From assembly GCA_018402205.1 (NCBI GenBank), contig JAGYIX010000003.1, positions 496,001-560,000 of the forward strand: 64,000 bases of DNA, read 5' to 3'. Shown piece by piece: positions 17,071 through 18,885 of the stretch (positions are counted from its first letter, which is position 1; every line of letters begins with the position of its first letter). Made by a program: the position numbers and the translations under genes. The notes beneath the pieces were generated by a model. It searched no databases and was not told where the DNA came from. It saw only the letters and a list, made by a program, of their open reading frames with translations. Source of the DNA: Flavobacteriaceae bacterium. Its GTDB lineage: Bacteria > Bacteroidota > Bacteroidia > Flavobacteriales > Flavobacteriaceae.

Positions 17071-17379
17071 CTATTTAACTATAATTTTTACCGGCGGAAC
17101 CACTGATGGGCGCAACCCTTTACTCTCTAAACTTATTTTCATAGACGACTCAAGTCGCATTTGCTGAACCGCTCGGCGGCCTTCGATATGCTCGTTTCTA
17201 AATCCTTGAAGCTCATTATTTAGGGTGTCTATACGCACTACTTTCTGGTCGGAACTATGTGCCGCATAAATCATTAATGCGAAAAGAGAAAACACATAGA
17301 AAATGAATCGCCAATTCTTTGCGGCGTCTTCACTTACTAATGGGCTTCCTTTGAATACTTCTACAAACCAGTTTTTCAT
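17071..17379 (-). CDS. FtsL-like cell division protein
   Basis: 102 aa bitopic protein between rsmH and ftsI. Confidence 0.75.
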   Translation of the reverse strand: MKNWFVEVFKGSPLVSEDAAKNWRFIFYVFSLFALMIYAAHSSDQKVVRIDTLNNELQGFRNEHIEGRRAVQQMRLESSMKISLESKGLRPSVVPPVKIIVK

Positions 17380-18299
17380 GACTCCTTAAACGTATTTTCT
17401 ATGCGTTCTGCCACCCTAAGCACCGCACTTCTAGATCTTGGGTTTACCCCTATTTCATTGTCTGAAGCCTCCATTGGCCGTCCGACTTTCTTAAAAAACA
17501 ACCGTGGATTTCCATAGAAATCTTTTTCGATCGCCCCATCTACCCTAGAAGCACGAATAAAATTCTTAACCAAGCGGTCTTCTAAAGAATGGTAACTCAT
17601 TAAAGCAATGCGTCCGCCTTCTTCTACCACATCAATTAATTGTGGAAGCATTTGTTCTATGGCTTCTAATTCGTTGTTAACCTCAATGCGCAAGGCTTGA
17701 AAAACTTGCGCGTTTTGCTGGTTGCGCTTTGGCACATACAAAACAGCTTCAATAGCCTCTAAAAGTTCAAATGTGGTTGTAATAGGCCCCACCGACCTGC
17801 GAACCTCAATAGCTTTAGCTATAGAATAGGCGTTTTTGAGGTCTGCGTATTTACGAAACAACAGAGCGAGAGCATCGACCGAGTAAGTATTGACAATATC
17901 GGCTGCAGAAATAGGCATTTGTGCGCTCATGCGCATGTCTAGAAGTGCATCAAAACGTGTAGAGAATCCGCGATCTGCAGTATCAAATTGATGCGATGAA
18001 ACCCCAAAATCGGCTAAAACTCCGTTTACCGTGTCGCATCCATGAAAACGAAGCTGGGCTTTAAGGTGTTTAAAATTAGACGCGATAAGGGTAAATCTCG
18101 AATCATTAATTAAGTTGCGCTGCGCATCAGCATCATGATCAAAGGCAAATAACCTGCCCGAAACTCCAAGTTTTTCGAGAATAGCGCGAGAATGGCCACC
18201 GCCGCCAAAAGTCAAATCTACATAAGTGCCACTCGCACGAATCGATAGCGCCTCGACACATTCGTTAAGAAGAACCGGACTATGATAGGTTTGTGTCAT
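17376..18299 (-). CDS. rsmH: 16S rRNA (cytosine1402-N4)-methyltransferase
   Basis: YHSPVLLNECVEAL, VDLTFGGGGHSRAIL, SYHSLEDRLVKNF. Confidence 0.97.
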   Translation of the reverse strand: MTQTYHSPVLLNECVEALSIRASGTYVDLTFGGGGHSRAILEKLGVSGRLFAFDHDADAQRNLINDSRFTLIASNFKHLKAQLRFHGCDTVNGVLADFGVSSHQFDTADRGFSTRFDALLDMRMSAQMPISAADIVNTYSVDALALLFRKYADLKNAYSIAKAIEVRRSVGPITTTFELLEAIEAVLYVPKRNQQNAQVFQALRIEVNNELEAIEQMLPQLIDVVEEGGRIALMSYHSLEDRLVKNFIRASRVDGAIEKDFYGNPRLFFKKVGRPMEASDNEIGVNPRSRSAVLRVAERIENTFKES

Positions 18300-18747
18300 C
18301 TGAGAATATAGATTCAGCTAGATCAGCGTATATATCTTGACCTTCTGTCAATACTGCCTCATACTTTACTTTATCCCATATTTCAATGCGATTGATCGCT
18401 GAAGCGAGCACTACCTCTTTGCTAATAGAAGCAAAAGAGATTAGCGATTTTGGGATTTGCAGGCGCCCATGGTCTTCAAGATTAACCTGTTGAGAGCCGG
18501 CAAGAAAGTTTCTTAAGAAGGTGTCGTAATTTCTACTGAATTGATTTTTCGCTAAAATCTTGGTCATAAGCTCATCGTATGCTTGTTTAGGATAGAACTC
18601 TAAGCACTGCTGAAAGACCGAACGCTTTATCACAAAACCCTTGTCAAGAACCGGAAATAACTGCGTCATGAGCGAAGAGGGAATATTTACTCTACCCTTC
18701 ACGTCTGCCTTACACTCGTATTGTCCGATTAAATGGGTCATACTCAT
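18280..18747 (-). CDS. mraZ: Transcriptional regulator MraZ
   Basis: Two SpoVT/AbrB-like repeats (GQYECKADVKGRVNIPSSL; LEDHGRLQIPKSL); first gene of dcw cluster. Start 18747 or 18741. Confidence 0.94.
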   Translation of the reverse strand: MSMTHLIGQYECKADVKGRVNIPSSLMTQLFPVLDKGFVIKRSVFQQCLEFYPKQAYDELMTKILAKNQFSRNYDTFLRNFLAGSQQVNLEDHGRLQIPKSLISFASISKEVVLASAINRIEIWDKVKYEAVLTEGQDIYADLAESIFSDDTNLS

Positions 18748-18779: not shown

Positions 18780-18806
18780 CCACTTTTTTACACTTTTTTA
18801 CACTTT
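18780..18806 (-). promoter_or_regulatory. Candidate MraZ-binding boxes: three AAAGTG(T/G) repeats with 10-bp period
   Basis: Minus strand reads AAAGTGTaaaAAAGTGTaaaAAAGTGG; boxes at 18800-18806, 18790-18796, 18780-18786. Confidence 0.75.
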
Positions 18807-18814
18807 TATCCACA
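18806..18814 (+). promoter_or_regulatory. Consensus DnaA box (TTATCCACA)
   Basis: Exact match to TTATNCACA; near-match TTATCCCCA at 18827-18835, 21 bp away on the same strand. Confidence 0.55.
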
Positions 18815-18885
18815 ATTTGAATAAAGTTATCCCCAGCACCGTAGTTGCACTTATTTTCTATATTTGAACTTTGCAATCGCACAGT

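Follow-up and report, generated by a model that had tools for sequence, protein, structure and literature searches.

GTG repeats have already been described in the MraZ systems of E. coli, B. subtilis, mycoplasmas and Burkholderia (PMC7761207). In Mollicutes, MraZ sites are direct repeats of the form AAAGTG[T/G], and in M. genitalium the mraZ promoter is the only one (PMC8475190). Loss of mraZ there leads to an increase of dcw transcripts (PMC8475190), and for the M. genitalium protein a structure in complex with a '4 box promoter' is available (9sz7). Our search of the literature on MraZ in Bacteroidota returned nothing on the operator considered here and no binding or expression data.

The window, that is, the whole stretch of 64,000 nucleotides from a Flavobacteriaceae bacterium that was analysed, contains a phased array of short direct repeats in the promoter of mraZ, which heads a dcw cluster. 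The features involved are the following:

17071-17379: ftsL-like gene of the dcw cluster, behind rsmH/mraW
17376-18299: rsmH/mraW of the dcw cluster, behind mraZ
18280..18747, minus strand: mraZ coding sequence, 155 aa, ATG at 18747; Pfam MraZ PF02381, 81.6 bits
18760..18767, minus strand: -7 box TATATTTG of the mraZ promoter
18780..18786, minus strand: MraZ box 4 (promoter-proximal), AAAGTGG
18790..18796, minus strand: MraZ box 3, AAAGTGT
18800..18806, minus strand: MraZ box 2, AAAGTGT
18810..18816, minus strand: MraZ box 1 (distal), ATTGTGG, overlooked in the first-pass annotation

Read along the minus strand, the layout is ATTGTGGATA AAAGTGTAAA AAAGTGTAAA AAAGTGGATA TATAACCCC TATATTTG, followed by the ATG of mraZ at 18747. 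An operator of this kind is expected to show at least three short direct repeats with a GTG core and a 10-bp period; here there are four, spaced exactly 10 bp, and the array stops 12 bp before the -7 box. The first-pass annotation had reported three repeats, AAAGTGT-AAA-AAAGTGT-AAA-AAAGTGG, at 18806-18780 in 10-bp phase, exact in sequence and coordinates, and a -7 box at 18767-18760, which lies as given. Its three boxes are real; its total of three is not, because a fourth copy, ATTGTGG, follows in phase at 18816-18810.

The gene adjoining the array is a genuine MraZ, as judged from Pfam and structure. Its AlphaFold model (pLDDT 85) superposes on the MraZ proteins of M. pneumoniae and M. genitalium over 137-140 residues (Z 19-20, rmsd 1.7-1.8 A), the superposed structures including the M. 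genitalium complex on the '4 box promoter' (9sz7). It has the double-barrel fold and two D/E-x-x-x-R motifs (D15..R19 and E91..R95), whose R19 and R95 are invariant in the MraZ alignment; in the window's genus the second motif begins with E in place of D, a detail that we counted against the operator reading. Behind mraZ come rsmH, ftsL, a penicillin-binding protein gene and murE, and mraZ is therefore the head of the dcw cluster.

Provided that the -12 to -5 position of the -7 box in F. psychrophilum (PMC9723704) holds here too, the predicted transcription start of mraZ lies at about 18755, leaving a leader of about 8 nt. The boxes would then extend from about -61 to -25, with GTG cores at about -58, -48, -38 and -28, and thus cover the -33 region, where the first-pass annotation had placed its repeats. 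This region reads TTTG in Bacteroides, and a -33 motif was not detected in F. johnsoniae (PMC7366714). In the mechanism that we propose, a ring of MraZ protomers would contact the four GTG[G/T] boxes from one side of the double helix, each turn presenting one box. Bound MraZ would overlie the -33 region directly upstream of the -7 box and hinder RNA polymerase, so that more MraZ would mean less transcript from mraZ and its downstream genes. Binding and repression are to be expected here by analogy with the mycoplasma, E. coli and Burkholderia homologues; MraZ could in principle activate instead of repressing. A second -7 box TATATTTG at 18859-18866 on the plus strand faces an alpha/beta-hydrolase gene that runs divergently from mraZ (18871/18886-19656). 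This box is retained throughout the genus, so that the operator is flanked by promoters pointing in opposite directions and could act on the two of them.

How singular is this array? With as many as 3 mismatches allowed, the 26-mer built from three AAAGTG boxes matches this site only within the window (in two registers), where shuffles expect 0.09. In the whole 1.68 Mb genome of this bacterium, 26-mers with up to 2 mismatches occur at this site alone and the reversed-pattern control gave 0 matches. As to a second MraZ target in that genome, the sole 3-mismatch match (C2:206923) falls within coding sequence. Single AAAGTGK words show no excess over chance (24 seen, 18.7 expected), and the significance consequently rests on the phased array and not on the word.

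Upstream regions of mraZ were oriented and compared across relatives, MraZ being detected in 36 of 39 relatives and in 109 of 118 genomes of the phylum; the MraZ of the nearest named relative, a Flavobacteriaceae metagenome assembly, stands at 94%. In all counts "order" means Flavobacteriales, the named relatives being mostly Flavobacteriaceae. The order set comprises 121 distinct mraZ promoters, counted as sequences and not as independent events, and its null model consists of 30 dinucleotide shuffles of all promoters. At least three phased GTG[G/T] boxes are present in 114 of the 121 promoters and were found 0 times in the 30 shuffles. Since the box search fixes GTG by design, only the following base and the flanks are informative: the base is G in 336 of 363 order boxes and the flanks are A/T. 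GTGT accounts for the other 27 of the 363, mostly as a trait of the window's genus; that two of the window's four boxes are of this rare form was also counted against the operator reading. The first-pass annotation had taken the repeats for a 'Mollicute-type' box in a Bacteroidota promoter, a label that must be given up because the box of the order is the general GTGG and GTGT is mostly a variant of one genus.

The gap from the last box to the TAnnTTTG of the promoter is 12 nt (76 promoters) or 11 nt (33), which makes 109 of 119 order promoters. The first-pass annotation had named absence of the repeats from close relatives as decisive against its proposal; they are present in all 11 genomes of the window's genus. 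There, the 10-base unit of box 1 is identical in 11/11 genomes and each other box varies at four positions. Beyond the order, at least three boxes are retained in 13 of 15 promoters from other orders of the class, and two or three boxes in 52 of 62 from other classes of the phylum, on differing promoter types. Some of the latter (e.g. L155, L156, L160, L163) have a different operator layout, with two GTGGGG-like boxes and then an inverted TTCCCA copy (GTGGGGAATTTTCCCA).

The tandem layout and the A-rich, low-complexity spacer might raise the suspicion that the repeats are a functionless product of chance or of mutational tandem duplication in AT-rich DNA. This explanation is extremely improbable given the 114 of 121 relatives against none in shuffles, and given that spacers between boxes vary among relatives while GTG and phase persist. 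We conclude that the array is very probably the MraZ autoregulatory operator of the dcw cluster, as the first-pass annotation had proposed; the adjoining MraZ gene, a phased array in nearly all relatives, the fixed spacing to the -7 box and a single site per genome give that proposal good support. We are confident that this operator belongs to a known kind.

A second conserved element, a DnaA-type box, lies beside the array and was missed by the first-pass annotation. In the window itself it is represented by two sequences:

18806..18814, plus strand: TTATCCACA, canonical DnaA-box sequence overlapping MraZ box 1
18816..18824, minus strand: TTATTCAAA, decayed remnant (7/9) of the TTATYAACA slot, at the -11 position relative to the first GTGG that 81 order promoters also use

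Across the order, TTATYAACA or TTATCCACA stands upstream of the array in 97 of 121 promoters, and in 93 of these 97 the element starts 11 nt (81 promoters) or 12 nt (12 promoters) before the first box. This one-base shift in spacing suggests that the element serves a separate protein. When the inverted TGTGGATAA of the window's genus is added, a DnaA-type box is found in 109 of the 121 promoters, as compared with 2.2 in shuffles. TTATYAACA departs from the universal DnaA consensus TTATNCACA in having A for C at position 6, the exception being TTATCCACA in Psychroflexus. In other orders of the class, TTWTCCACA occurs in 6 of 15 mraZ promoters (0.14 expected), once at the same -11 position. An IHF site was considered for TTATCAACA and discarded, since the IHF consensus, WATCAANNNNTTR, fails at TTR.

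Outside mraZ, the exact AAACTTATYAACAA is no commoner than its reversed control, and for this reason the shorter 9-mer was looked for at chosen promoters. TTATYAACA is present in 23 of 23 hup promoters of Flavobacteriales, with 43 boxes against 0.5 expected, mostly as pairs 19-21 bp apart, and the dnaN promoters carry it in 14 of 20 genomes as minus-strand TGTTRATAA upstream of the dnaN -7 box (L286-L309); hup and dnaN had each been chosen after one chance match, so these counts are a test on further genomes and not a blind screen. The hup gene of the window genome has an inverted TTATYAACA pair (L250:4585-4612, that is G000:C2:266584-266611), other hup loci being L254-L276. On the same contig, the listed TTATNNACA matches from about 486 kb to the last one listed (762.8 kb) are all on the plus strand, with mixed strands before, which amounts to a change of strand bias.

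The element also clusters at a predicted replication origin. In G066, a complete genome, the GC skew taken at steps of 130 kb flips sign between about 0.85 and 1.25 Mb, and in the 400 kb read there the cumulative skew has its minimum near the left edge, with a noise of several kb. Within these 400 kb the sole cluster of at least three TTATYAACA per 500 bp consists of four in 461 bp at 862.8-863.3 kb (P about 5e-4 under uniform placement), in the AT-rich gap between rpiB and rnr, near the skew switch and about 12 kb from mnmG, a gene that carries the oriC label in another Flavobacteriaceae genome (PMC12843772). Between rpiB and rnr, 3-4 boxes are likewise present in G094, G125, G058 and G121; the gap lies 8-20 kb from mnmG and away from dnaA. 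We regard it as a candidate Flavobacteriaceae oriC (G066:C1:862785-863590, L330; also L352, L356, L359, L360 and L363), predicted from AT-richness, coarse GC skew and the vicinity of mnmG in G066 together with the four further genomes. An origin beside dnaA was rejected, as no box cluster was seen there in 5 of 6 genomes and G090 has a weak group of one-mismatch boxes; none was found within 1.5 kb of mnmG either, the cluster lying further out. Perfect TTATCCACA clusters are absent from G066 and G140. G090 has TTATCCACA at mraZ and three more in the rpiB-rnr gap, and the recognition helix of its DnaA reads RDHS (L212 compared with L213-L217). The helix is RDHA in five order genomes: the window genome, whose TTATYAACA is at hup, and four in which the element occurs at mraZ or at the candidate origin. 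It is RDHT in the DnaA of E. coli and B. subtilis and in the others of solved structure.

Could the same promoter be read by both MraZ and DnaA? The origin-like cluster, the covariation of box and helix and the sharing with hup and dnaN lead us to read TTATYAACA as probably the DnaA box of this lineage. Whether the dcw promoter of Flavobacteriales is a MraZ-DnaA switch, with DnaA on TTATYAACA at about -60 tying the dcw cluster to replication and, in the window's genus, on TTATCCACA over box 1 in competition with MraZ, is to our judgement evenly balanced. The DnaA-type box in 109 of 121 order promoters speaks for such a switch, as do the clusters at the candidate origin of G066, G094, G125, G058 and G121, the TTATCCACA version in G090, the hup and dnaN promoters, the TTWTCCACA of other orders and the pairing of RDHA with TTATYAACA genomes and of RDHS with the TTATCCACA genome. 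There is precedent too, in that DnaA of B. subtilis binds the ftsL promoter region and, as in E. coli, regulates dnaN (PMC8203912). However, the covariation amounts to one switch only (G090), the DnaA of the window genome has RDHA, for which a preference for TTATYAACA is predicted, but the mraZ promoter of that genome has this box in decayed form only, the exact box is absent from the oriC-like gap of the genus, and G066 itself lacks the element at mraZ.

It might be instead that TTATYAACA serves another regulator or RNA polymerase, as an UP-like element, and that the origin cluster is an AT-rich coincidence. The mismatch to the universal DnaA box, at position 6 or at 5-6, would favour this, together with a literature on the order that yielded no DnaA binding data and the lack of excess of AAACTTATYAACAA over its control. 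Nevertheless, we deem it unlikely: four boxes in 461 bp are hard to obtain by chance, the same gap recurs in five genomes, G090 changed to TTATCCACA at both mraZ and the gap, and the replication genes hup and dnaN share the element. For the switch read by MraZ and DnaA, the comparison of sequences would fit a TTATYAACA that co-evolved with the change of the DnaA helix from RDHT to RDHA and is shared by oriC, hup and dnaN, and we give this wider scheme the same even chance. The mraZ promoter of most Flavobacteriales would receive a replication-linked input from a DnaA box one turn upstream; in the window's genus this input may have decayed, or been replaced by the canonical DnaA box over box 1.

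In this respect, the TTATTCAAA slot varies within the genus, and the canonical box over box 1, where TTGTGGATAA is the complement of TTATCCACAA, is invariant in 11 of 11 genomes. TTATCCACA occurs 4 times in the window genome against 31 for the reversed control, and its other three copies lie inside open reading frames; this rarity and the invariance of box 1 would fit a second constraint on that box. The rpiB-rnr gap of the genus contains one-mismatch boxes only, and the hup promoter of the window genome uses TTATTAACA. Because its own DnaA is of the RDHA kind and hup uses TTATTAACA, a DnaA action at the window's own mraZ promoter is uncertain and rather doubtful.

As an MraZ operator, the array extends a known autoregulatory circuit to Bacteroidota with a large footprint, which comprises a box consensus, a box number and a placement with respect to the unusual -7 promoter. 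If the second element is DnaA's, it would offer a concrete, mutable site linking replication initiation to division-gene expression, and origin finders would gain the correct DnaA box for Flavobacteriales. A composite MraZ-DnaA promoter in the order, for which the odds are about even, would be novel as far as the literature examined goes.

Compared with known systems, the locus resembles the operators of M. gallisepticum and M. genitalium (promoter structures 9r4j and 9sz7) in its tandem AAAGTG[T/G], its place in the mraZ promoter and its single site per genome, and it has four boxes as in 9sz7. Unlike in Mollicutes, the promoter is of the Bacteroidota -7 and not of the sigma-70 type, the window's relatives use GTGG rather than GTGT and a DnaA-type element stands alongside. 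E. coli, with TGGGN repeats, and Burkholderia cenocepacia, with four 7-nt repeats and 3-nt spacers, have operators that share with it a GTGG-type core, the 10-bp period and an autoregulated dcw promoter. The boxes of B. cenocepacia, and by its authors' account those of E. coli, lie downstream of the -10 box (PMC7761207), whereas here they lie upstream of the -7 box. For the second element, the nearest likeness is the binding of DnaA in B. subtilis to the promoter region of ftsL (Goranov 2005, cited in PMC8203912), likewise a division gene; in contrast to that case, a fixed, lineage-specific putative box stands here at a distance of one turn from the MraZ array throughout an order.
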